Part shown: positions 3,863 through 55,100 of the stretch, piece after piece | Layout: every line of letters begins with the position of its first letter | Position numbering within the stretch: the first letter of the stretch is position 1 | Source: Brevibacterium sp. CS2 | GTDB lineage: Bacteria > Actinomycetota > Actinomycetes > Actinomycetales > Brevibacteriaceae | DNA length: 64,000 nt | Assembly: GCF_005280295.1 (NCBI RefSeq) | Contig: NZ_CP040020.1 | Span: 186,001 to 250,000 of the forward strand | Direction of reading: 5' to 3' | Notes under the pieces: generated by a model | The model's input: only the letters and a program-made list of their open reading frames with translations | Told to the model about the DNA's origin: nothing | Database searches by the model: none | Made by a program: the position numbers and the translations under genes

Positions 3863-3871
3863 GCCGGGGCT

Positions 3872-4025
3872 CCCGGGCAGGCGGGCGCGGTTGCCCCGTT
3901 CCCGGGCAGGCGGGCGCGGTTGCCCCGTTCCCGGGTAGGAGGGGTTCCCCGTCCCCAGGCAGGCGGGCGCGGTTGCCCCGTTCCCGGGTAGGAGGGCTCC
4001 CGGTTCCCGGGTAGGCGGGGCTTCC
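3872..4025. repeat. Tandem array A: 29-bp GC-rich units with shorter variants
   Basis: The unit CCCGGGCAGGCGGGCGCGGT plus TGCCCCGTT is repeated perfectly at 3872-3900 and 3901-3929. It is followed by shortened variants built on CCCGGGTAGG and one more near-complete copy. The array follows the dehydrogenase stop codon. There are no unique spacers, so it is not CRISPR. The 545-base gap 3863-4407 is mostly this array and array B; no gene is supported in it. Confidence 0.85.
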
Positions 4026-4145
4026 GGGGCATTCCAGTGCGGTTCCCCGGTTACCGGGTCATTCCAGTGCGGTTCCCCGATTCCAGGGTCACTCCAGTGC
4101 GGTTCCACGATTACCGAGTCACACCAGTGCGGATACTCGCCGGTA
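4026..4145. repeat. Tandem array B: four 30-bp units containing CCAGTGCGG
   Basis: Four head-to-tail 30-base units start at 4026, 4056, 4086 and 4116. Each contains TCCAGTGCGGTTCC or a close variant, and the last is the most diverged. Because 30 is a multiple of 3, the minus strand can be read as a decapeptide repeat (EPHWxDPxxG), but there is no start, ribosome site or homology to support a protein. The same CCAGTGCGG core forms the long hairpin after ppa (32731-32786). Confidence 0.85.
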
Positions 4146-9363: not shown

Positions 9364-10104
9364 TCAGAGGTGCTTGAGCATCCGTGAGTTGCCCAGGGTG
9401 TTCGGCTTGACGCGGGCGAGGTCGAGGAACTCGGCGGTGCCCTCGTCGTGGGAGTGGAGGAGCTCGACGTAGACCTCGGGCGACACCGGGGTGCCGGAGA
9501 TCTCCTCGAAGCCGAGCGATTGGAAGAAGCGGGTCTCGAAGGTCAGGCAGAACACGCGGGAGACCCCGATGTCCCGGGCGTCGGCGAGGATCTGCTCCAT
9601 GAGCGAGCGGCCGATGCCGCGCCCCCGGTAGTCGGGGTGGGTGGCGACGGTGCGCGCTTCGGCGAGGTCGTCCCACAGCACGTGGAGGGCCGCGCAGCCG
9701 ACGACGACCTCCTGCGGCCCGGAGCGGTCGACGACGAGGCGGAACTCCTGGAGCGACTCGAAGTAGTTCACCGGGTCCTTCGCGACGAGGATCCGCGCCT
9801 CGGCGAGCGGCTCGACCAGCCCGCGGATCGCCTTGACGTCCGGGGTGCGCGCGCGGCGGATGAACAGTCCGCTCGGCAGTTCCCGGGCCTCGGGCAACGG
9901 CGGCGTCCCGGGGTCGAACCCGGCCGCAGCGGTCACCTGGGAGGCGGTGGCCCGCTCATGCGTGGTGGCCCGCTCATGCGTGGTGGGCGCCTCGGACACG
10001 GTGGGCGCCTCGGTGGCGGTGGTCGCCTGGGGTGCCGTGGTCGCCTCGGGCACGGTGGTCCGCTCGGGACCGGAGATCGGTGGCGTCGCGGGGTCGGCAG
10101 GCAT
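9364..10104 (-). CDS. GNAT amino-acid N-acetyltransferase (actinobacterial ArgA type)
   Basis: The GNAT core from about residue 78 (IRRARTPDVKAIRGLVEPL) through ALHVLWDDLAEARTVATHP, the acetyl-CoA loop YRGRGIGRSLM, RVFCLTFETRFFQSLGFEEI and the end EFLDLARVKPNTLGNSRM closely follow the M. tuberculosis ArgA (Rv2747) family, which makes N-acetylglutamate for arginine synthesis. The first 75 or so residues are an unusual Thr/Ala/Glu-rich extension with a perfect THERAT duplication and several EATT/EAPT copies. Its DNA is repetitive and may not be translated. ATG 10104 is used, but GGAGGA abuts it with almost no spacing, so an upstream GTG/TTG (near 10116) or a start just before the GNAT core are alternatives. 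The core is certain, the start is not. Confidence 0.82.
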   Translation of the reverse strand: MPADPATPPISGPERTTVPEATTAPQATTATEAPTVSEAPTTHERATTHERATASQVTAAAGFDPGTPPLPEARELPSGLFIRRARTPDVKAIRGLVEPLAEARILVAKDPVNYFESLQEFRLVVDRSGPQEVVVGCAALHVLWDDLAEARTVATHPDYRGRGIGRSLMEQILADARDIGVSRVFCLTFETRFFQSLGFEEISGTPVSPEVYVELLHSHDEGTAEFLDLARVKPNTLGNSRMLKHL

Positions 10105-42357: not shown

Positions 42358-45300
42358 TCACGCCGTAACAAGCTGCATTAGCTCGGTGTAATCGGTCACC
42401 ACGTCGTAGGTGACGTCGTTGCCGTTCTTCTCGCTGAGGGAAGCGAAGAACTTGCGGGCACATTCGATCTTGGCGTCCTCGACGCCCTTGAGCTGGAGCG
42501 TGGACAGCGAGCCCTTGGTCTCTGCGACGAAGTAGACGTGCTTGACGCTGCCCTCGGTGAACGCGATGGCCCAGTCCGGGTTGTAGTCGCCAACGGGCGT
42601 GGGGATGAAGAACCCTCGCGGGAGTTTCGCGTAGACGGCGACCTCGTGGCTGGTGTCGAGTTCGGTGACGAACTCGCGTTCAATCTTGGAGTCGGTGACC
42701 ACGTAGTCGTAGACGTGCTTCTTGAGCTTCGACCCGGCCTTCGAGAAGTCTTGGGCCGTCTGGTTCTCGGTGAAGATCGCGGAGTCGAAGCGGTCTTCGA
42801 GAGCGTCATATGCGAGGTGCTCGACGATGACGGTGGCCTTCTGTTCGTTGATGAGCCGGGCTGCCTCGGTGATGAACTGCTCGGGGTTGAGACGGAACTT
42901 GGCGAACGTTCCTGGCGTGACGCCGCGGAGGATCGCTGCGACCGTGCGACGGGTGAGCTGGGTCTTCTCGGTGATCTCACCCAGCAGGTCGTACTTCACC
43001 TGCGAGCCTGCGCTGACGGTTTCGGTGTGCGTCTGCGTGGTCTGCACCGCGAAGCCGGAGCCGCTGGTCAGGTCGTCCGCCTCCAACTGCTCGCGCTGCT
43101 GGCCGGCTTGCGCGACGTATTGCAGCGCGGCGACATTGAGGTGCTTGTCGAGGTGGTCGATCGCCTTGCGGATCAGTTCACCGGAGTCGAACTCAACCTG
43201 GTAGACGGCGCGGTGGTTGATCCTGCCCCACAGGGCCTGGAACTCCTTGCGAGCAAAGTTGGCCTCGTTCAGCGGTACCTTCTTCGGCTTGCGGTCATCG
43301 GTGGGCACCGGCAGGTCCAGGTAGAGAACGTCAATCAGCGGCCACACGAAGTCGATGACAGGCTTGAGTACCTCAGAGGTCGGAGCGGCGAGTGTCCCGT
43401 CTTCCTTGGCCTGCTTGTAGGCGTCGGAGATGGTGTCGTCGTCGTTCACGTAGTCGTTCTTGACCAGGTACTTGTAGAGCGCCTGGGCGACGGCTTCCTC
43501 GATGACCGACTCACCCGAGAGGGTCTGGATGGTCTTGCCGACGAAGAACTTGACGCTGGCCTTGCGCGGCCGGGCGGCGAGCGACTCGGAGATTTCGCGT
43601 TGGAGGCCGGTCACGAAGTCGGTGTAGGACTCGTCAGTGACGACGGTCAACTCGTTGATGTCGTGCACCGTGACGGGGTTGTCCATCCGCTCCCCGTGCT
43701 GGTCAACGGCCAGCCGGAGCCCGCGCCCGATCTCCTGGCGACGGGAGACGGTGTTGTCGCTCTTCTTGAGCATACCCATGACGAACACGTTGGGGTTATC
43801 CCAGCCCTCGCGCAGCGCCGAGTGGGAGAAGATGAATCGGACGGGTTCGGTGAAGGACAGCAGGCGTTCCTTGTCTTTCAGGATCAGGTCGTAGGCGTCG
43901 GTGTCCGTAGACTGGCCCTTGTCGTCGCCCCGGCCGGAGACCCTGCCGTCGATCTGGTGCTTGGTCTTCTTGTCGATGGAGAAGTAGCCCTCGTGCACCT
44001 GCCGCACGTCGTCGCGGCGCAAGTAGGTCTGGTACTCCTCGGTCGCCGCGTCGATGGCGAGTTCGCCGAGCACCTCGTCACGGATCGCGGCGTACTCCTC
44101 CTCAAACATCCGCGCATAGTCGCCAAGAGTGTCCTCACGGCTGTAGTCGCGGTACTTGGCGACCTCGTCGATGAAGAACAACGAGAGCACCTTAACGCCC
44201 TGGCTGAACAGCTCGCGTTCCTTGTCCAGATGAGCGCGAACGACCTCGCGAATCTGGATGCGTCGCTTGGTCTCCTCGGTGACGTCCCGGTCGGCAAGCT
44301 GCCCAGCCACGACCACATCGCCGTTGCTCAGCTCGATCACGTCCCGGTTCGCGTCAACCTCGGTGATGAACAGCCCCTTGTATGCCTCGATTCCGTTCGA
44401 GACATCATGAAGGTTCGTTCCCACGTCGAGGCGCTTGACCTGTCGCCTGATGCCGGTTACCATCTGCACCTCGATCTCGACCCGCGCGCGTGGCTTGGCG
44501 CCCTTCGCGATCTCGATGGAGTCGAGGTACAGGTAGGCAGTCGATCCAGCGAGACCCTTCACGGTGATGCCCCGCACCGAGATCTTCTTCACCAGCTTCT
44601 GGTTGTAGGCGTCCAGCGCGTCGAGCCGGTGCACCTTGGTGTGATCGACCTTGTGCGTAGCGGAGTACCGCAGCAGCATCAGCGCGTTGAACCGTGACAG
44701 CGCTTCCAGCGACTTGGGCGCTCCGATCTTCTGCGGCTCGTCAATGATCACGATAGGGCGGTTGGCGCTGATGACATCGATCGGACGGCGCGACTGGAAG
44801 TCATCGAGTTCGTCGTAGATGCGGCGGTTGTCCTTACCGGTGGCGTTGAACGCCTGGATGTTGATGATCATCACCTGCACGCCAGCATCGGAGCTGAACC
44901 GCTCCAACTCGTGCAGCTGGGAGGAGTTGTAGATGAACGAGCGCGGCTTGGTGCCGTAGAGCTGCTGGAAGTGCTCGGAAGTCACATCGAACGACTTTTT
45001 CACGCCCTCCCGGATCGCGACCGACGGCACCACAATGATGTACTTCGACCAGCCATACCGCTTGTGCAGCTCCATGATCGTCTTGATGTAGACGTAGGTC
45101 TTACCCGTGCCCGTCTCCATCTCCACGTCAAGGTTCGGTGCGCCGGGAGCGGCGGCGCTGGAGGCGAGCTTGGCCGACAGCGGGAGGTTCCGTGACCGCT
45201 GCACTGCGTGCACGTTCTCCAGCAGTTGCGCTCCCGACAGGACGATCTCAGCGTTGCGCAGACCGGCGTCCGAGCACTCCTCGGCCTCGAACAGTTCCAG

Positions 45301-45435
45301 GTCGGTCACGGGGCGGACTTTGCCAGGGTCGATCCGGTAGGAGATGCCGTCATGCTTCGGTTGCCCGGCGAAGGTCTCGACGACGGCATCGACGGCATCG
45401 GTCTGGTACTGCTGGACCTTGAACTGGAGCTTCAT
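42358..45435 (-). CDS. res: Type III restriction enzyme Res subunit (SF2 helicase-endonuclease)
   Basis: 1025 residues. The helicase has METGTGKTYVYIKTI (Walker A), IVIIDEPQKIG (DExH-like), RYSATH (motif III), then IFSHSALREGWDNPNVFVMG and RRQEIGRGLRLAVDQHGERM (motifs V and VI). The C-terminal PD-(D/E)xK nuclease is readable as GDYNPDWAIAFTEG followed by YFVAETKG. Type III Res cuts only with its Mod partner and translocates on DNA between two head-to-head sites. It is last in the operon. Its GC content is visibly lower than the flanking metabolic genes. ATG 45435 has only a weak AAAGA site. Confidence 0.94.
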   Translation of the reverse strand: MKLQFKVQQYQTDAVDAVVETFAGQPKHDGISYRIDPGKVRPVTDLELFEAEECSDAGLRNAEIVLSGAQLLENVHAVQRSRNLPLSAKLASSAAAPGAPNLDVEMETGTGKTYVYIKTIMELHKRYGWSKYIIVVPSVAIREGVKKSFDVTSEHFQQLYGTKPRSFIYNSSQLHELERFSSDAGVQVMIINIQAFNATGKDNRRIYDELDDFQSRRPIDVISANRPIVIIDEPQKIGAPKSLEALSRFNALMLLRYSATHKVDHTKVHRLDALDAYNQKLVKKISVRGITVKGLAGSTAYLYLDSIEIAKGAKPRARVEIEVQMVTGIRRQVKRLDVGTNLHDVSNGIEAYKGLFITEVDANRDVIELSNGDVVVAGQLADRDVTEETKRRIQIREVVRAHLDKERELFSQGVKVLSLFFIDEVAKYRDYSREDTLGDYARMFEEEYAAIRDEVLGELAIDAATEEYQTYLRRDDVRQVHEGYFSIDKKTKHQIDGRVSGRGDDKGQSTDTDAYDLILKDKERLLSFTEPVRFIFSHSALREGWDNPNVFVMGMLKKSDNTVSRRQEIGRGLRLAVDQHGERMDNPVTVHDINELTVVTDESYTDFVTGLQREISESLAARPRKASVKFFVGKTIQTLSGESVIEEAVAQALYKYLVKNDYVNDDDTISDAYKQAKEDGTLAAPTSEVLKPVIDFVWPLIDVLYLDLPVPTDDRKPKKVPLNEANFARKEFQALWGRINHRAVYQVEFDSGELIRKAIDHLDKHLNVAALQYVAQAGQQREQLEADDLTSGSGFAVQTTQTHTETVSAGSQVKYDLLGEITEKTQLTRRTVAAILRGVTPGTFAKFRLNPEQFITEAARLINEQKATVIVEHLAYDALEDRFDSAIFTENQTAQDFSKAGSKLKKHVYDYVVTDSKIEREFVTELDTSHEVAVYAKLPRGFFIPTPVGDYNPDWAIAFTEGSVKHVYFVAETKGSLSTLQLKGVEDAKIECARKFFASLSEKNGNDVTYDVVTDYTELMQLVTA

Positions 45436-45511
45436 CGAGTGTCTTTCTTTCTGCAATCGGCGCTGTTCGTCGTCGCTGCTAGAGGGATGCGGGCGTTGTG
45501 GATGCCTGTGC

Positions 45512-47257
45512 TCACGCTGATCCCGGCCCTCTTGCGTCGTCACTGTCGCCGTCATCCTTCTTGCCAGCGGGCTCAGACGGTACGCCTTCGTCGCCTGCGT
45601 AAGAAAGCTCCCATCGTGGCTTCGTGCGGGTGCCGCGGTTGACGATGACGCCGTGGCGGCGCAGCTTGGTCAGGAGGTTCGTGATCTTGGTTGTCTTCTG
45701 CTGCTCGGTGAGCGCTTCGCTGAGCGCTGGCCGGAGCAGCACCTCTACGTCACCACGGTCTGCGTGTCCTTGCGCGCGGAGGAAGTCGGTGAGGAGCGTG
45801 GCGTAGTGCGCGTCGGCCTGGGGCCGGGTGCGGATATAGTCGGCCATCGCCCCGGTCGCCGCTGCGACGCGAGGAGTGATCCGGCGGTGGGGCTTCCGGC
45901 CTTCGATCAACCCGACTCTGCGCAGGTGGCGGGCGGCCTTCTCACTGATGTCGAGTCCCTTCTGAACGCGGTCCAGCGCAAGTACGTCTTCGAGCGGGAG
46001 ATCGGTGCGGACCATGAGCAGCTGAGAGTACGACTCATCGATCACCGCGCCCGGGATTGTGAGCTTCACCTCGCCGGTGGTGCTGAGGTCGTAGTCGGGC
46101 AGCGGTAGGAAACGACGCACCTGGTCCTGCACCATCCGGTGGATTCCGTAGCCCATCTGGTCGATGAGGTTCAGCTCAGTCATCGCCTCGACGAGGAACG
46201 GGTTGCGATACTGGCGCGGGGTGCGCTCGTCCAGCGCGTAGTCGTCGGGTGTGCCGTCGAAGAACTCGCCCACACTCTCGAAGACGATGCGGTCGGCGTG
46301 CTCGGTGACGATGATCCGAGAGTTTCGCGTGTAGTCCTGGTGCGCGATGCAGTTGTAGAGCGCTTCGAGCAGGCTGCGTTCGTCGTACTTGCTGATCTCT
46401 CGATAGATCAGCTCGTCAGGCGGCAGAAGTCGAAGCTGCACGTTACGGATACGCTTCGCCAGCGCCGTGGTGTTCAGCAAGAACGGCAGCCGGAAGTGCT
46501 CGTTTGCCCGCTGCTCGCCAACCAGCTTCCAAGTCATCTGCGCAGGGTGCGGACTTAACTGATGCGTCGAGGTGTCGGCGCCGAGCAGGAGGAGTGCAGC
46601 CCGCGTGATCTGGTCATCACGGGTCAACCGTGCTTTAGACAGGAACGTCGCGTCGTCCCATGCCTCAATGTCGCCGGCAGGGATACGGGACGCGTACCGT
46701 TCGGTGAACCCTTGACGTGCGCGGGCGATCGCTGCCGGATCGAGGTCAGCGAGCGTGGCGTCAGCAACGACGACAGCCGACCAGTCCGCACTGATGGTCT
46801 GTCGGCGGATCTCATCCAGTTTGTCCAGCGACAGCGGCACCAGGCTCTCGCCTGCGCGAGCGCGGTAGTCGCCCTTCCACGAGATCGGGATGCCGCGGGG
46901 CGCCGCCGGCACCTCCAGAAGCACCACGCGCTTGCCCGAGTGAATGACCTCGTAGACCTCGCGGACTGTCAGCCCCTGGTCGATCGACTGGTGGATGTGA
47001 TGCTTCAACGTCTGATGCTGCTGTACTTCGAAGAGATGCGTCGTGCCGACCACCTGCCGAGCGTTCGAGACCCCGAAGACGAGCCACCCCGAGGCGAGTC
47101 CGCGCAGGTTCGCTTCGTTGCTCAGCGCCGAGACGTACTCACCGGTCTTGTCCGCAGAGAACTGACGAGCAGCCTCCTTGAACTCGACAACCTCGTTCTC
47201 CCAACCGGCCAACAGTCGGTCGAGGAATTCGGTGAGTTCGTCGTTCGTCAAGGTCAT
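45512..47257 (-). CDS. AlbA_2 (Schlafen-like) domain ATP-binding protein
   Basis: 581 residues. The N-terminal AlbA_2 domain reads ENEVVEFKEAARQFSADKTG, then LSNEANLRGLASGWLVFGVS. The middle is a GHKL-type ATPase half: LLEALYNCIAHQDYTRNSRI and TEHADRIVFESVGEFFDG, then LVEAMTELNLIDQMGYGIHR. Winged-helix segments follow (GLDISEKAARHLRRVGLIEG), and the C-terminus is charged. Such proteins are called transcriptional regulators or putative helicases and are frequent beside restriction genes. Inserted between mod1 (8-base gap) and res, so probably a working member of the operon. Role unknown: regulator, or an added effector/sensor. Confidence 0.88.
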   Translation of the reverse strand: MTLTNDELTEFLDRLLAGWENEVVEFKEAARQFSADKTGEYVSALSNEANLRGLASGWLVFGVSNARQVVGTTHLFEVQQHQTLKHHIHQSIDQGLTVREVYEVIHSGKRVVLLEVPAAPRGIPISWKGDYRARAGESLVPLSLDKLDEIRRQTISADWSAVVVADATLADLDPAAIARARQGFTERYASRIPAGDIEAWDDATFLSKARLTRDDQITRAALLLLGADTSTHQLSPHPAQMTWKLVGEQRANEHFRLPFLLNTTALAKRIRNVQLRLLPPDELIYREISKYDERSLLEALYNCIAHQDYTRNSRIIVTEHADRIVFESVGEFFDGTPDDYALDERTPRQYRNPFLVEAMTELNLIDQMGYGIHRMVQDQVRRFLPLPDYDLSTTGEVKLTIPGAVIDESYSQLLMVRTDLPLEDVLALDRVQKGLDISEKAARHLRRVGLIEGRKPHRRITPRVAAATGAMADYIRTRPQADAHYATLLTDFLRAQGHADRGDVEVLLRPALSEALTEQQKTTKITNLLTKLRRHGVIVNRGTRTKPRWELSYAGDEGVPSEPAGKKDDGDSDDARGPGSA

Positions 47258-47265
47258 GTCGTTCC

Positions 47266-49239
47266 TCAGATCGTCCTTACCTCGGTCGCGGGCGACATCT
47301 CACGGAACACCTGCTCAGCATTGATGCGCGCGGCATCGGATTCGAAGGCATCGTCGCGGAAGACGGCGCGCAGCGGGCCACGTTCGGCGATAGCTCGCAC
47401 GACATCCGGAGACACAGACTCCGCGAAGCAGGCGATCAACGCGTCGTCGTCAACTGCGAACACCTCGCGGGCATCGACCTCGGCGCGTGTGATCTGTACT
47501 GACGGTTCGAGTCCCCAGTCGAGCAACACTTGGAACAGCAGGTCTTCTCCAGACCGGCCAGCCTTGATACTCGCTTCCAGCGAGTCAAGTCCGAGTTGAT
47601 CTGTATCAACCGCCGTTCTCAGAACATCGGCCTTGTTGCTATCATCGATACGCAGCGCGCGGAAGCCGACATCAAGGTCGGAACCGAGGAGCCCCACCTC
47701 TTCCTTCACTTGCGCTCCGGCCCGACGCAGGCGCTCGCGGGCGACGTCGGCAAGACTCGTAAATCCGCGCCTGCCCCCAGTCGATCCTGGGTCGAGACTT
47801 TCGTCGAGTTGCACCAGGATGAAACGTCGATTGCCGCGGTCGGCAGCGTTGAGGTTCATGATGGCGTGCCCGGTCGATCCTGAACCCGCGAAGAAGTCGA
47901 GGATGATCGCGTTCTTGTCGCTGCTCGTCACGGCGTCGACCCAGGTTCCAAGGACCCCAACATCCTTCGGGTAATCGAACATCTTGCCGTCAAGTAGCCT
48001 CGTCAACGCGTCGCTCGCTGGGGCACGCTCCTGGGTGACGACTGGGCGGATCGCTTGCTGTCCCATCTCGTCGAGGAACCGCTTGTAACGTGGGGTTGTC
48101 TGGTGATCGGGACCGAACTGGATCCGGCCCTCGGCGATACTCGCTTCCATGGACTCTTTGGACAGCCGCCACCCGTTCGGGTGCATCGGGACCGGCACTC
48201 CCGTCGTTGGGTGCGGAAGGTCATACATGAGGTTTGCCCGCGGGTTCGGACTCGCGAGATCACTCTTCGTAAACGCTCTGCCCGAGTCGTCGATCTCGTT
48301 GTAGGCCCGCAGGCCAGCCTCAGCATCGGGCTTCGTCCGCCACCAGTCGCGAAACAGTCCGGTGGCTCGTGAAGCATCGTGCCCCGACTCTTCCCAGGCC
48401 CTGCGTCCCGCCTCCATGACTTCGTCGTAACCGCGCTTCGGCCCTTTGAAGCGCACGTCAAGCCCGATCAGCGCGGCCTTGCTCCGCGCGTAGATGAGCA
48501 TGTAATCAAGGCCGCCTGCCGTGAACCGCGCATCGTTTTTACCCGACCCTTGCCACACCACATCGGCCAGGAAGTTATCGGCCCCAAAGACCATGTCGAG
48601 CAGCGACCGCAGGTTCGCATGCTCGTGGTCATCGATCGCGACGATCATGACTCCGTCATCGGTCAGAAGGTTCCTCGCCAGGCGAAGCCGCGGATACATC
48701 ATGCTCAGCCAATCGGAGTGGAACCGCCCGTTGGCCTCGGTATTGGCAACGAGGCGAGCGCCCGTCTCAGATTTCTGTCCCGAACGGGCGAGGTAGTCGG
48801 CGCTCGACTCCGCAAAGTCGTCCTCGTAGACGAAATCGTTTCCAGTGTTGTACGGCGGATCGATGTAGACCACCTTGACCTTGCCGAGATAGGACTCCTG
48901 AAGCAGCTTGAGCGCTTCAAGATTGTCGCCCTCGATGAAGAGGTTCATCGTTGTGTCGAAGTCCACTGAGTCCTCGCGCACGGGACGCAAGGTCTTGGCG
49001 ATCGGTGCGCTGGCGGCGAAGGCGGCGGCGCGCTTGCCAGGCCAGTCGAGCTGGTAGCGCTCCTGTGGCCCCTCGACTACGTGGTCGGAGAGCTCTTGTC
49101 GGAGCAGATCGAAGTCAACGGCGAGGGTCAAGTTGCCCTCCGCGTCTCGCGATTCGGTGATGACCTGCGGGAACAGGTCGGCGATTCGCTCGATGTTTCG
49201 AGCGGTGAGGTCGGGTGTGTGCAGGGTGCGCTTCTCCAT
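47266..49239 (-). CDS. mod: Type III DNA methyltransferase Mod1 (beta class)
   Basis: About 657 residues, intact. Motif IV is VVYIDPPYNTGNDFVYEDDF, near residue 130; motif I is ILDFFAGSGSTGHAIMNL, near residue 445. This IV-before-I order is the beta class of type III Mod proteins, N6-adenine methyltransferases. The ends closely match Mod2, while the middle (roughly 195-430, the target-recognition region) is unrelated: ADVVWQGSGKNDARFTAGGL here. The end TEVRTI is the normal Mod C-terminus. ATG 49239 (or GTG 49242) lies 27 bases after the in-frame end that Mod2 would have. Confidence 0.94.
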   Translation of the reverse strand: MEKRTLHTPDLTARNIERIADLFPQVITESRDAEGNLTLAVDFDLLRQELSDHVVEGPQERYQLDWPGKRAAAFAASAPIAKTLRPVREDSVDFDTTMNLFIEGDNLEALKLLQESYLGKVKVVYIDPPYNTGNDFVYEDDFAESSADYLARSGQKSETGARLVANTEANGRFHSDWLSMMYPRLRLARNLLTDDGVMIVAIDDHEHANLRSLLDMVFGADNFLADVVWQGSGKNDARFTAGGLDYMLIYARSKAALIGLDVRFKGPKRGYDEVMEAGRRAWEESGHDASRATGLFRDWWRTKPDAEAGLRAYNEIDDSGRAFTKSDLASPNPRANLMYDLPHPTTGVPVPMHPNGWRLSKESMEASIAEGRIQFGPDHQTTPRYKRFLDEMGQQAIRPVVTQERAPASDALTRLLDGKMFDYPKDVGVLGTWVDAVTSSDKNAIILDFFAGSGSTGHAIMNLNAADRGNRRFILVQLDESLDPGSTGGRRGFTSLADVARERLRRAGAQVKEEVGLLGSDLDVGFRALRIDDSNKADVLRTAVDTDQLGLDSLEASIKAGRSGEDLLFQVLLDWGLEPSVQITRAEVDAREVFAVDDDALIACFAESVSPDVVRAIAERGPLRAVFRDDAFESDAARINAEQVFREMSPATEVRTI

Positions 49240-49266
49240 CACGCGCCACCGACCAGCGAGCGACGG

Positions 49267-51148
49267 TCATATGGTCTTGACCTCAGTGTGTGGCGAGCAT
49301 TCACTGAACACCTGCCCGACGTTGATGCGCTCCGCGTCGTCCGCGAAGTCTTCGTCGAAGAACACGACACGTAGCGGCTGACGCTCCGCGATGGCTGCGG
49401 CAGCCCGAGAGAGAGAGGGAGAGAGAGGAATCGCGCGCCTCACGCGGACGTGTGCACAGGATCAACGCACCCTCCTCAACGTCGTACACCTCAAAGCCAT
49501 CAGCAGTCTCCTTCTGGATCGGCATCGTGAGTTCCAAGCCCCAGTCGAGAAGGACCTGGAACAGGAGGTCTTCGCTTGTGCGGCCAGGTTTCACGCTGCC
49601 GACAACGTCGAGCAGGGATGTCTGCACGAGCTCGTCGGCGGTAATGGATGTGTCGGCCAGGTTCGTTGTATCCACACGGAGCGCTCTGAACCCAACATCA
49701 ACCCGGTCTTGGAGAACGCCGGCGTCGCTCTTGAGCTTGAGGCCCGCGCGACGGATGCGCTCTCGACTGATCTCGGAGACCACGCCGTACCCATTCTGTG
49801 CTGCCGTGGAACCCTGGCTCACCACTTCATCGAGCTGAACCACAATGAAGCGGCGCGTGCCGCCATCAATGGCATTCGCGGCCAATACGGCATGCGCGGT
49901 GGTTGCCGATCCTGCGAAGAAGTCCATGACGATCGAGTCCTTGACGCTCGCAAGTCCGATGATCCGTTGGAGGAGAGAGACTGGCTTGACGGTGTCGAAG
50001 ACCGCATCTCCGAACAGGTCCAGGATTGCCTTTTTACCCTCTTTGTTCGAGCCGGTCGTATCCCAGTAGTTCGTCGTCGGCTGCCCTTGGCCTTCGTGCG
50101 CGTACATCACTCGCTGAGGAACACCGGCTCCATTTGCACCCCAGTAGAGTCGCCCCGACAAAGCCAGTCTCTCGAAGCTCTCGCGGGGATAGGCCCATGT
50201 TCTGGAAATCTCGTCACCGGACGGGGTCACGACCGAGTAGACGTATCCGCCGCCCTTCAGCCCCTTGGAAACCGTAATAGGTACCCCTCGCCAACGTCCT
50301 TCCGGAAACTCGGAGGTCGGGTCGCGATACGACGCAGCAACGTAATCCTCGGCCAGGGGCTCAAGTGCGAGGGCTCCCTCCACTGAGCGCGCGTAAACAA
50401 GAATGAACTCACCCTGGATCGCGACGTTCTTGGAGTCATTCGACGTTTCGCGCTTGCGACGCCACATGATCGTTGTGACGTAGCTCGGGGTCCCGAAGAC
50501 CTCATCACAGATGTGACGCAAGGCGGCTTGTTCGCCTTCGTCGATGCTGATGAATATGAATCCATCGGAAGAGAGCAAGTTCCGCGCCAACCTCAACCTC
50601 GGGTACATCATCGATAGCCAATCCGAGTGGAAGCGCCCGTTCGACTCCGGGTTCGCCACGAGCCGTTCACCTGATGCGAGTGTCTGCCCAGAACGCTCCA
50701 GGTAGTCGACGTTCGACTCGGCGAAGTCGTCCTCGTAGACGAAGTCGTTGCCAGTGTTGTACGGAGGGTCGATATAGATCAGCTTCACCTTGCCGAGGTA
50801 CGACTCCTGGAGCAGCTTGAGTGCATCCAGGTTGTCGCCTTCGATGAAGAGGTTCTTCGTGGTGTCGAAGTCGACCGACTCCTCCCGCACGGGGCGAAGG
50901 GTCTTCGCGATCGGAGCGTTCGCAGCGAAAGCGGCGGCACGCTTGCCGGGCCAGTCGAGCCGGTACCGTTCCTGCGGACCCTCCACGATGTGGTCGCTGA
51001 GTTCCTGGCGCAGCAGGTCGAAGTCGACCGCTCGCACGGAGTTGCCGTCGGCGTCGGAGCTCTCGGTGACGACGTTGGGGAACAGATCAGCGATCTTGTC
51101 AATGTTGGCCCGCGTGAGGTCGGGCGATGTCATGCGTAGTCTCTCCAC
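49267..51148 (-). pseudogene. mod: Type III DNA methyltransferase Mod2, out of frame at a GA repeat (phase-variable?)
   Basis: The frame from GTG 51148 gives IDPPYNTGNDFVYEDDF (motif IV), its own middle region (VTTIMWRRKRETSNDSKNVA) and IVMDFFAGSATTAHAVLAAN (motif I), then the C-terminal module to EEGALILC. After that the GA tract at 49407-49428 shifts the frame: it runs LSLSLSGCRSHRG to a stop at 49301. The other frame continues with IAERQPLRVVFFDEDF, NVGQVFSECSPHTEVKTI and TGA at 49267, matching the Mod1 end. One more dinucleotide, or two fewer, would restore it. About 43 conserved residues are lost in the present state. It starts 3 bases after the DUF4391 stop. ATG 51133 is an alternative start, but alignment with Mod1 favours 51148. 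Confidence 0.9.
49407..49428. repeat. GA-dinucleotide tract inside mod2
   Basis: On the plus strand the tract is (GA)5, GG, (GA)4, GG; on the coding strand it is a CT repeat read as Ser-Leu. It lies exactly where the frame breaks in mod2. The homologous stretch of mod1 has no repeat and is about 25 bases shorter. Confidence 0.95.
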
Positions 51149-51151
51149 GGG

Positions 51152-51817
51152 TTACCTCTGCTGTTCCAGTTCGTGTTGCTTCGTCTTGAGTGTGCGGCGG
51201 AGCTCGACCTTGCGGTTGAGCTGTGGTTCGGTACGGAGCTTGCGCTCCAAGGACGCGACCTCACGTTCGAGCTTGCGCACCGTGGCCAGTCTGTCGGCGA
51301 CGTCTGACATCTCCTCGCCCGGGCGCGCTGTGATCGGGGTCAGCGGTTGCAGGAGCGCAGCGTAGAGCGCCGGCAAGGTGATCGCCGTCGGCAGGGCTTG
51401 CCGCAGGGTGTCCTCTGGCTGCCAACCGGTCGGGTAGTAAGGGCTGAGCTTCGGCGTTCCGGCCCCGAGCTGCTTGTGCGCCGCGACCATCCGAGCCTCG
51501 GGCTGATCGGCGCGGTGGCGCGCGATCTCGAAGATAATCGGGAACGGAATGGCCTTGTCGATGGCGCCCAGGACGGCTTCGCTGACGTCGTCAGTCTTGG
51601 CGTCGATCGTGAAGACCTGTATTTCCGGCACCGTCGGCACTCCGGGCAGGTTGATCGTGGCCTCGGCGAGTTTGTAAGCCCAGGTGATGCGTTGGACTTC
51701 GGCGATGAACTTCTCACGGATTGCGGTACTGACGGTGCCGTGCTCGTAGAACTTCTCTTTGGGCACTCGTCTGCCGAACTTCGCTGCCTCGGGCCACCGG
51801 TAGAGGACGTCAGTCAT
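51152..51817 (-). CDS. DUF4391 protein of the restriction operon
   Basis: 221 residues: FYEHGTVSTAIREKFIAEVQ, ITWAYKLAEATINLPGVPTV, EIQVFTIDAKTDDVSEAVLG, AIPFPIIFEIARHR, then a C-terminal coiled coil (VADRLATVRKLEREVASLER to HELEQQR). This is the DUF4391 pattern; these proteins occur beside SNF2-type helicases and type III mod genes, and their function is unknown. The start overlaps the helicase stop by 8 bases and mod2 follows after 3. The coiled coil suggests a bridging or adaptor part (inference). Confidence 0.85.
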   Translation of the reverse strand: MTDVLYRWPEAAKFGRRVPKEKFYEHGTVSTAIREKFIAEVQRITWAYKLAEATINLPGVPTVPEIQVFTIDAKTDDVSEAVLGAIDKAIPFPIIFEIARHRADQPEARMVAAHKQLGAGTPKLSPYYPTGWQPEDTLRQALPTAITLPALYAALLQPLTPITARPGEEMSDVADRLATVRKLEREVASLERKLRTEPQLNRKVELRRTLKTKQHELEQQR

Positions 51818-54800
51818 CGGCGCCGCCCTCGGTGGGGTCTACGACGGCGATGAACGCGGTCAGCTCGAAGTCATCGAGTCCCGCGATGGTGTGGGTGAGG
51901 GCGGTGGTGCCGCCCCCGGTGAAGAGGCTGTCGATGTCGCGTTCCTCGGTGACGTCGATCATGGAGTGGATCGCGTCGGTGAGGAGCGCTGAGTACTTGC
52001 CCATCTGTACGCCCTCATTGGTTGCGGTGTTGAATGCGTGGACGACGTCGGTGACGGGTTCCTCGTATGGACGGCATCCGACGCGGAGGAGGTCGAGGAG
52101 GTGCTTCGCTTCGGTGTGGTTCGCGATGACTTCACCCTGGTCGTCGAGGTAGATGAGGTAGTGCGGGTGGAGCCGGTTGCCGCGGTTGCCGGAACCCTCT
52201 GAGAACGGGGTCTCGTCGGGGGTGAGGTTCCGGAGGGCGAAGATGACGCCGGGTCGCAGCCCCTTGCTAGGGTCTGCGGGGATCACGGCGTGGAGGCCGC
52301 GGGGTGCGGTGTCGAGGTCGCCGTGTTCCTTGATGTAGCCGAGTAGGTCCATGCGGAAGTCGTTGAGTCCGAGGTCGGTGATCGAGACTCCCGTACGGAC
52401 GTCTTCCAGCTCGATGACCTCATCTTGAAGTTTGCGTAGCTGCTCCTTGCGGAAAGCTGCGTCAGAGTCTTCGAGGGTGAGGACGTTGTCGTCGGCGGTG
52501 CTGGCGAGGTCCGCTATGACCATACGATTCTCGACACGTTCCTTGAGGTTGATGTACTCGTCGAGAGAGATGTCTGGCCAGAAGTTCACGAGTTGAATCT
52601 GGCTATTGGTGGAGCCGATGCGGTCAATGCGCCCGAAGCGCTGGATGATGCGCACGGGGTTCCAGTGGATATCGTAGTTGATCAGATAGTCACAGTCTTG
52701 GAGGTTCTGCCCCTCACTGATTACGTCGGTGCCGATAAGCACGTCCAGTTCGCGCGTCTCGCGTGGCATCGTAAGGTGGCGTTGCTTGGAGCGTGGCGAG
52801 AATACCGACATGACCTGTTGGAAGTCGAAGCCTGTTCCCAGGGTCGTTTTCGTTCCGTGGCTTCCACCGGTGATCACTGCCGAGCCCAGTCCGGCGGCAG
52901 CGAGGTCTGGAGCGAGTTCCCTGTAGAGGTAATCAGCGGTGTCGGCAAAGGCTGAGAATACGATCACCTTGCGGTTGCCGTCATTGATTGGGCGCTGAGC
53001 CTTGTCTTCGATGAGCTGTTTGAGCTTGCGTAGCTTGAGGTCGCGGTCAGGCGTGACCTTGCCCATCTCATCGAGAAGCTCTCGAAGAGTTTCGCGATCG
53101 TTCCACAAGTCGCGTTGCCAGGATTCGATATCGAGGTCACCGAGGTCGATCTTGATCTTCTCACCAAAGAACAATGCCTCGATGTTCGCGTCGTCTTCGT
53201 CATCGCCATCAAAGTCGAGCCCGTCGAGGTCTGGACTCAGTTCGGCGAGGTTGCCAGCATGATTGCTGATGCGCCCGAGCGTGTGAGTGACGGAGTTTTC
53301 GATCTTCGCCAGGGTGAGGCGGAATGCATCGATTGAACTCTCCAGCCGCTTGAGCAAATTCACTGTCATGAGCTTCTTCAAGCCCTGCTCACGTCCTGCC
53401 TGACCGAGATTGGACCGAGCGTTGCCTGCGGTGACGTTGTAGATGTCTTCGTACTTGGAGCGCCGACTCGGGAATACGTACGCGAGCGGGGTGTAAACAG
53501 CGAGGGTCAGCTCCTGTAGCTGTTCAAAGATGTCTTTGAATCCGGGCGCGTCCGGCAGGTCGGTGAGCGGCTCACGGATCGAGAGCGGAGGGCGCCGCTC
53601 GGGAAAGGCACCGACTTCAGTCGTGTCGTAAAAAGCTTGAATATGCTTCCGTGACCGGGCGATGGTTACCGAGTCGAGCAGTTCGAAGAAGTCGAAGTCG
53701 AGCATCTGAAGGATGCGCTCGGTCGTACGATGATCAGCGTCGAGCTTGGACCACTCATTGAATACTCGCTGAGCATCGGCAAAAGCTTTCTCGATCGTAG
53801 TGGACAGGCTCAGGTGCTGAGCGAGATTGCCTGACTCGCCCTCGTAGGCAAGCTGGAGCTGGTTCTTGAGGTCATTGAACCGGTTGTTCACAGGCGTTGC
53901 CGAAAGCATCAGCACCTTGGTCTTCACACCCTCGCGAATCACTTGGCGCATGAGACGCTGGTAGCGCGATTCCTTTTCCACGGCATAGTCGGCGTTGCGA
54001 AAGTTGTGGGACTCGTCGATCACGACGAGGTCGTAATTGCCCCAATTGATCCGATCCAAACGCAGGCCGAGGGACTCGCCCTTGGTACGGGAGAGATCAG
54101 TATGAGCGAGCACGTCGTAGTTGAAGCGGTCAGAAGCGAAGATGTTGGTCGTAAGGTTGGCATTGTAGTTCGTCCAGTTCTCGGCGAGCTTCTTCGGGCA
54201 CAGCACGAGCACTGACTTGTTGCGCAGCTCGTAGTATTTGATGACAGCGAGCGCAGTGAACGTCTTGCCGAGGCCGACTGAGTCCGCGAGAATGCACCCG
54301 TTGTAAGTCTCCAGCTTATTTATGATGCCTGTGGCAGCATCGCGCTGGAAGTTGTACAGGCTCTGCCAGACCTTTGTCTCTTGGTAGCCGGTGCGATCGT
54401 TCGGCAACACGTCCTCGTTGATGTCGTCGAGGAACTCTGCGAACAGGTTGTAGAGGATCAAGAAGTAGATGCGGGCCGGAGAATTCTCGGCGTAAACGCT
54501 GGCGATGTAGTCGTAAACGGCCTGCGTGACGTCGCTGACCTGCTCGGGGTTATGCCAAATCTGGTCGAACAGCCGCATGTATTGCTCGGTCATCGGGGCT
54601 TCGTCGAGCCTGTTCACGAAGCTCGAGACGGCGTTGCCACTTTCGTAACCGAGATCAGCAGTGGTGAACCCCTGGAGCTGGGTATACGCAGTCGTGTCAT
54701 CGATCACCGCAAACTGCTGCATTGGGTTGCCTGTCGCGTTCGAGCGGAACGTGACCTTGCGGCGCACCCAGTCTGCACACTCCCGCGCGATCGCACGCTG

Positions 54801-55100
54801 GGTGAGCTTGTTGCGCAACCTGATCTCGAACTCTGACCCTGCAAGGCTCGACTCGGCCTGACCGCTGGGGATGAAGAATTCGCGGCGTTCCTTGCGGAGT
54901 TTGTCAGTCACTTTCTCGGTCACAAATGACGGGGACGTGAAGATGAACTCCAGTTCGGAAACTTTTTCCAGTTCCTTGCGAAGTGATTCGAAGGCGAAGA
55001 TGGAGAATGTCGATGCGGCAATGCGCAACTTCGAACCTGGCGCAATCTCGGCCTTGAGATCGTCGCCCAGGAGGTCGCTGACGTTGTTAATAATCCACAC
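51810..55100 (-). CDS. PLD-like/SNF2 helicase of the restriction operon
   Basis: 1096 residues. The N-terminal 150 residues look like a phospholipase-D-type fold (SKLRIAASTFSIFAFESLRK, LEFIFTSPSF), though no clear HKD motif is seen. The SNF2 motor has LADSVGLGKTFTALAVIKYY (I), YDLVVIDESHNFRN (II), VLMLSATPVNNRFNDL (III), KVIVFSAFADTADYLYREL (IV) and VLIGTDVISEGQNLQDCDYL to RIIQRFGRIDRIGS (V-VI). The C-terminus is unassigned. Not a usual part of type III systems; it recalls the helicases of DISARM and other multi-gene defences. GTG 55100 is weakly supported (TAGG 8 bases upstream). First gene of the operon. Confidence 0.9.
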   Translation of the reverse strand: MWIINNVSDLLGDDLKAEIAPGSKLRIAASTFSIFAFESLRKELEKVSELEFIFTSPSFVTEKVTDKLRKERREFFIPSGQAESSLAGSEFEIRLRNKLTQRAIARECADWVRRKVTFRSNATGNPMQQFAVIDDTTAYTQLQGFTTADLGYESGNAVSSFVNRLDEAPMTEQYMRLFDQIWHNPEQVSDVTQAVYDYIASVYAENSPARIYFLILYNLFAEFLDDINEDVLPNDRTGYQETKVWQSLYNFQRDAATGIINKLETYNGCILADSVGLGKTFTALAVIKYYELRNKSVLVLCPKKLAENWTNYNANLTTNIFASDRFNYDVLAHTDLSRTKGESLGLRLDRINWGNYDLVVIDESHNFRNADYAVEKESRYQRLMRQVIREGVKTKVLMLSATPVNNRFNDLKNQLQLAYEGESGNLAQHLSLSTTIEKAFADAQRVFNEWSKLDADHRTTERILQMLDFDFFELLDSVTIARSRKHIQAFYDTTEVGAFPERRPPLSIREPLTDLPDAPGFKDIFEQLQELTLAVYTPLAYVFPSRRSKYEDIYNVTAGNARSNLGQAGREQGLKKLMTVNLLKRLESSIDAFRLTLAKIENSVTHTLGRISNHAGNLAELSPDLDGLDFDGDDEDDANIEALFFGEKIKIDLGDLDIESWQRDLWNDRETLRELLDEMGKVTPDRDLKLRKLKQLIEDKAQRPINDGNRKVIVFSAFADTADYLYRELAPDLAAAGLGSAVITGGSHGTKTTLGTGFDFQQVMSVFSPRSKQRHLTMPRETRELDVLIGTDVISEGQNLQDCDYLINYDIHWNPVRIIQRFGRIDRIGSTNSQIQLVNFWPDISLDEYINLKERVENRMVIADLASTADDNVLTLEDSDAAFRKEQLRKLQDEVIELEDVRTGVSITDLGLNDFRMDLLGYIKEHGDLDTAPRGLHAVIPADPSKGLRPGVIFALRNLTPDETPFSEGSGNRGNRLHPHYLIYLDDQGEVIANHTEAKHLLDLLRVGCRPYEEPVTDVVHAFNTATNEGVQMGKYSALLTDAIHSMIDVTEERDIDSLFTGGGTTALTHTIAGLDDFELTAFIAVVDPTEGGADD

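Follow-up and report, generated by a model that had tools for sequence, protein, structure and literature searches.

The type III restriction-modification operon

The DNA analyzed here, called the window below, is a 64,000 nucleotide stretch of the Brevibacterium sp. CS2 genome (contig NZ_CP040020.1, positions 186,001 to 250,000). On its minus strand lies an operon with the gene order SNF2-type helicase, DUF4391 protein, mod2, mod1, Schlafen/AlbA_2-HATPase protein and Res (table 1). The mod2 product has the motif arrangement of a type III Mod protein, a beta-class N6 methyltransferase, with DPPY before and an FxGxG-like motif (FFAGS) after the recognition domain, and it matches Pfam family PF01555, the PADLOC MTase_III model (7e-203) and the Mod subunit of EcoP15I (5e-60). 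The linked Res protein carries both helicase and endonuclease domains, as is required of a type III restriction-modification (R-M) system. Mod1 and Mod2 have their N-terminal and methyltransferase parts in common and differ in the target recognition domain. Across genera the mod2 alleles (mod1-mod2 region, 47266-51148 in the window) are 86-100% identical at their ends and only 20-40% identical in the middle (AAs about 200-400), and their target recognition domains look as if they had been exchanged as cassettes. Among plasmid records there is no close copy of the operon; the best place covers 60% of it with 78% identity.

Table 1. Features of the mod2/mod1 operon (window coordinates)
Feature	Position	Strand	Remarks
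SNF2-type helicase	51810..55100	-	operon member
DUF4391 protein	51152..51817	-	operon member
mod2 as read, type III DNA methyltransferase (N6_N4_Mtase), 615 aa	49301..51148	-	DPPY at aa 127, FFAGS at aa 410
Interrupted dinucleotide tract of mod2	49407..49430	-	coding strand TTCCTCTCTCTCCCTCTCTCTCTC; core 49407-49428; 24 nt
Conserved C-terminal tail of mod2, 46 codons + stop	49267..49407	-	one frame over in this genome
TGATG, stop of third mod2 frame overlapping mod1 ATG	49237..49241	-	arrangement common to all 13 alleles tested
mod1, intact second type III methyltransferase, other target recognition domain	47266..49242	-	GTG at 49242 or ATG at 49239
Schlafen/AlbA_2 + HATPase_c_4 protein	45512..47257	-	operon member
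Res, type III restriction subunit	42358..45555	-	ResIII + RE_endonuc domains

An interrupted repeat at the mod2 frame break

The sequence GAGAGAGAGAGGGAGAGAGAGG (49407-49428, plus strand) occurs once in the window and in none of 100 shuffles, and pattern searches, from which the genome-wide tract counts given here are taken, find two (GA)5 runs in the whole 3.24-Mb genome. Tandem Repeats Finder (TRF) reports the tract as a perfect 10-nt tandem duplication (49409-49428, 2.0 copies); it can also be described as a (CT)10 run interrupted by a single base, and each of its blocks contains 4-5 perfect units. At this tract the conserved Mod2 sequence is lost (after amino acid 572) and the frame of the mod2 body continues into arginine-rich nonsense; the conserved ending RAAAAIAERQPLRVVFFDEDFADDAERINVGQVFSECSPHTEVKTI* resumes one frame over and terminates at 49267. 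The mod2 gene of the window is thus in an OFF state, and no other stop or frame break is present in its reading frame. A previous reading of this DNA from sequence alone had placed the tract exactly at the frame break, which is confirmed here, and its calculation that a change of +2 or -4 nt would restore the frame is correct because the tail is displaced by +1. An allele from Leucobacter has the same flanks as the window and one 10-nt copy fewer, and it is in frame. The window also contains, far from the operon, GC-rich tandem arrays at 3871-4132 and 9946-10068 (29-53 nt units; 18-nt units; about 2 and 5 copies).

Tracts in related loci

One scan of 85,000 species genomes yielded 80 loci. Nearly all of the actinobacterial loci with two tandem mod genes have a CT or a GA tract in the first mod; the CT tract reads Ser-Leu, and the GA tract, which is placed slightly upstream in the gene, reads Arg-Glu. 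The simple sequence repeat that is interrupted in the window is long and perfect in these relatives (long tracts of 19 to 49 nt), where it lies within the reading frame at or near the same place, and all three frames are represented. The sequence-only reading had called for such a comparison among related strains; done across genera, it finds much longer perfect tracts in every frame rather than a single shared out-of-frame length with decay elsewhere in mod2. Four alleles are ON (L037, L040 and both mod2 copies of L054) and eleven are OFF (the window, L036, L038, L039, L042, L050, L062, L076, L086, L094 and L105), the OFF alleles including some from the isolate genomes of Jonesia, Miniimonas and Arthrobacter.

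A long tract (at least 6 perfect units) is found in nine of the 11 actinobacterial two-mod operons, with L036 and L038 entered once, and the exceptions are the window and L037, which have runs of 4-5 units. On the other hand, none of the 20 single-mod actinobacterial operons of the same family has a long tract (Fisher p 2.7e-6 by a test that ignores shared ancestry). The pattern is also present in L076, a MAG named Trueperaceae, and there is no tract in the two-mod operons of the proteobacterial MAGs L070 and L114. The Acidimicrobiaceae MAG locus (L054:3-3491) has three tandem mod genes, the first two of which each carry a 29-nt CT tract and are both in frame; here the switchable unit has apparently been duplicated. 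In the Specibacter assembly (L105:5774-5794) an undetermined base (N) stands just where the GA tract begins, which might stem from reads of differing tract length. One viral contig (L173) also matched the tail pattern, but by chance and in unrelated DNA, and was discarded.

Tract length and selection on the tail

Two of these loci, from a Herbiconiux MAG (L036) and Arthrobacter subterraneus (L038), differ by one mismatch over 13,830 bp outside the tract. The tract is 36 nt in the former, whose contig has a coverage of about 4x so that this length could carry some error, and 28 nt in the latter; they are four CT units apart and in different frames, a difference that in our judgement exceeds the usual stutter. 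The near-identity extends over the whole loci (a stretch of about 13.9 kb, 99.99% identical outside the tract) and across genera, which means either recent transfer or misbinning, and in both cases these are two separately assembled copies. The tract has therefore changed far faster than its surroundings, in relatives that belong to other species than that of the window.

Substitutions within the 40-codon tail were counted among OFF alleles only. In the ON frame pN/pS is 0.31 for the CT class and 0.11 for the GA class, and the other two frames of the same tails give values of 1.0-2.8. A tail that is never translated would look otherwise, and the sequence comparison indicates that the out-of-frame tail is under purifying selection. 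As a group, then, the OFF alleles do not have the relaxed selection on the out-of-frame part that is expected of pseudogenes. The tail of the window taken alone has two private amino acid changes and no silent change, very few changes in all, and its private changes may reflect relaxed constraint.

The lost segment and coupling to Res

In an AlphaFold2 model of the L037 ON protein, built from a 39-sequence alignment and of moderate confidence (mean pLDDT 72), the CT tract occupies a predicted loop of the C-terminal domain, between the strand at 588-592 and the helix at 602-611, so that the OFF state would remove the final helix-strand-helix-strand. The alignment of the family profile with EcoP15I Mod extends to residue 617, within the C-terminal domain (539-644) of that protein. 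In EcoP15I the C-terminal domain of one Mod contacts Res, and dimerization occurs through the N-terminal and methyltransferase domains (PMC4490356). The sequence-only reading had suggested that a switch so near the end of the gene might affect Res coupling or stability and leave the rest of the protein in place, and this view is sound, as the lost part corresponds to the end of the Res-contacting domain. Because that domain docks Res and dimerization occurs elsewhere, the OFF state may cut Mod2 off from restriction and yet leave methylation in place; by this analogy the switch may act on restriction rather than by abolishing the Mod2 protein.

It is a serious possibility, to which we give somewhat less than even weight, that OFF Mod2 is an active methyltransferase without Res coupling, with the repeat toggling that specificity between methylate-and-restrict and methylate-only. 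OFF Mod2 retains its N-terminal, methyltransferase and recognition parts, which include the domains used for dimerization in EcoP15I, and both kinds of tract, although not at quite the same place, are located within the C-terminal domain. Half of this domain may, however, misfold and Mod2 then be degraded, and the structural model is of only moderate confidence.

The third frame and the mod1 start

The remaining frame is open past the ON stop in 13 of the 13 alleles tested, and it ends at a TGATG or TAATG that overlaps the mod1 ATG; the spacers to this overlap (28, 34, 46 and 82 nt) are each one more than a multiple of three. In the TGATG frame, 14 of 14 repeat-bearing mod genes have an open tail, as against 13 of 32 controls (p 1.6e-4), but these alleles are related and the counts are not independent, so the pattern is suggestive only. 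L038, L062 and L086 are in the TGATG-frame state. An OFF frame that ends at the mod1 start is a sequence arrangement hinting at a third state, and the locus might be a three-state device in which the TGATG frame couples translation to mod1 and the amount of Mod1 also depends on tract length. We regard this as doubtful: the frame that reaches the mod1 overlap is open in every allele tested, but beyond their kinship the chance openness is about 0.3 per allele, and in L105 a stop at the tract precedes the overlap with mod1. Joining both ideas, a C-terminal repeat switch of the accessory Mod in actinobacterial two-Mod, one-Res systems would toggle restriction coupling, and its third frame would link translation to the adjacent mod, whereby a single tract would set both restriction and Mod dosage; this we offer as speculation that is rather unlikely to hold as a whole.

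Is mod2 phase-variable?

Our best explanation, in which we have considerable confidence, is that mod2 encodes an accessory Mod, which is turned on and off when the dinucleotide repeat within the C-terminal domain slips, and that the window copy is OFF and probably slow or nearly locked. Slippage would change the mod2 frame; in the ON frame full Mod2 would be made, and in the OFF frames Mod2 would lack the last part of this domain, with mod1 intact, so that the cell would keep one specificity and gain or lose the other. Mod2 function, or at least its coupling to Res, would presumably be lost in the OFF state. The directly established tract and its frames, the length variation between near-identical copies and the tail selection all argue for switching, as do the bias of tracts to two-mod operons and the position of the lost part in the C-terminal domain. 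No MutS is detectable in the genome, which also counts in favor of switching; to our knowledge such absence is usual for actinobacteria. Against these stand the short, interrupted tract of the window, the private changes in its tail and the low coverage (about 4x) of the L036 MAG contig, and all of the evidence is comparative. The earlier claim of phase variability is thus well supported, by comparison, for the locus family, in which relatives occupy all frames, near-identical copies differ in tract length and the tail is selected; the copy of the window strain itself, with its short and interrupted tract, probably switches slowly or is locked. Short tracts have been described as stable (PMC6265453).

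Whatever its relatives do, mod2 could simply be dead in this strain, with the 10-nt duplication or a frozen interrupted tract fixed out of frame and the gene decaying. The interruption of the tract and the two private amino acid changes in the tail, with zero silent ones, speak for this, but mod2 has no stop or frame break elsewhere, the ON frame of its tail is still open to the proper stop, and the 10-nt unit is a perfect tandem repeat that could be lost again; we consider this explanation possible, if on the unlikely side. Two others were considered and rejected. A sequencing or assembly error might be suspected in low-complexity DNA of a species for which one genome was available, but this genome is a single contig and 99.99% complete, the tract has only 24 nt and is no homopolymer, and OFF alleles are present in other isolate genomes (Jonesia, Miniimonas and Arthrobacter), which makes such an error very improbable. 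Programmed ribosomal frameshifting at the tract to give full-length Mod2 would account for selection on a tail that is out of frame; alleles are present in all three frames, with very different lengths and some in-frame, however, and no one programmed shift could restore the frame in every case, so we give this next to no weight.

Relationship to known systems

The phase-variable type III mod genes of pathogens, modA (Haemophilus, Neisseria), modM (Moraxella) and modS (Streptococcus suis) (PMC6265453, PMC8125046, PMC7394358), resemble mod2 in having a repeat in mod, conserved ends, a variable target recognition domain and frame-dependent ON and OFF states. However, the S. suis modS tract is at the 5' end (PMC6265453), whereas that of mod2 lies close to the 3' end of its gene, which belongs to a tandem pair of mod genes in actinobacteria; we claim no regulon for mod2. 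S. suis modS was the first type III phasevarion in a Gram-positive bacterium (PMC8125046). M.MmyCI of Mycoplasma mycoides subsp. capri is also a type III Mod with a dinucleotide repeat within its reading frame, in this case AG, and natural clones with 12 units are OFF and with 10 units ON (PMC3498834). Its tract begins at nt 320, so that OFF removes most of the protein, whereas the mod2 tract is C-terminal; it is a single mod in a low-GC host, and its switching is backed by clones and activity, that of the mod2 family by comparison.

The NgoAV HsdS protein of Neisseria gonorrhoeae, in which a poly-G tract gives full or truncated HsdS (PMC7394358), is like Mod2 in that the repeat yields a full or truncated subunit and not none, but HsdS is a type I specificity subunit whose specificity changes, whereas Mod2 is a type III Mod whose C-terminal domain is cut short. 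EcoP15I (PDB 4zcf, PMC4490356) has the same Mod fold and domain order; it has one Mod species and is not described as phase-variable in that report, and what sets the mod2 family apart is its operon, with two Mods and with helicase, DUF4391 and AlbA partners. We found no phase-variable type III system of actinobacteria in the literature searched, a set without the principal inventory of mod genes with repeats (Atack 2018), and such switches appear to be hardly known in this bacterial group.

Long GA tracts in the order and beyond

Runs of (GA)8 or longer are present in nine of 396 genomes of the order. Gene calls for these were made by reading translations, with the mod genes tested by tblastn, and seven of the nine loci so read lie in R-M-like genes (two mod2-type genes, one other mod, hsdS, hsdM, an adenine methyltransferase and a helicase/restriction-like gene), and the other two lie in an intergenic region and in low-complexity DNA. 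The GA/CT tracts of at least 8 units in genes that read as other than the mod2 type are at L116:1500-1515 (hsdS), L118:1383-1400 (the other mod), L119:1501-1518 (helicase/restriction-like), L120:1500-1519 (hsdM) and L124:1500-1529 (adenine methyltransferase). To judge from these sequences, switching of R-M genes by repeats may be a general feature of the order. A phylum-wide tract search gave mixed genes (secreted proteins, some R-M genes and low-complexity contigs), so R-M enrichment is claimed for the order only, from the nine loci inspected. Two loci of one genome of the same class (L149 and L163, genome G749) have very long GA/CT and other simple repeats, which look like contamination or an assembly artefact.

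Work on repeat-switched type III methyltransferases has centred on host-adapted pathogens. With the mod2 family, a switch of this kind is placed in high-GC actinobacteria and in a two-Mod operon that recurs, and it sits in the C-terminal domain, not at the gene start. In the isolates Jonesia quinghaiensis DSM 15701, Miniimonas arenae KCTC 19750, Arthrobacter subterraneus NP_1H and Leucobacter chromiisoli CSA1 one could examine whether restriction and modification can be separated by a repeat; if so, phage resistance and transformability could differ among the cells of one culture.
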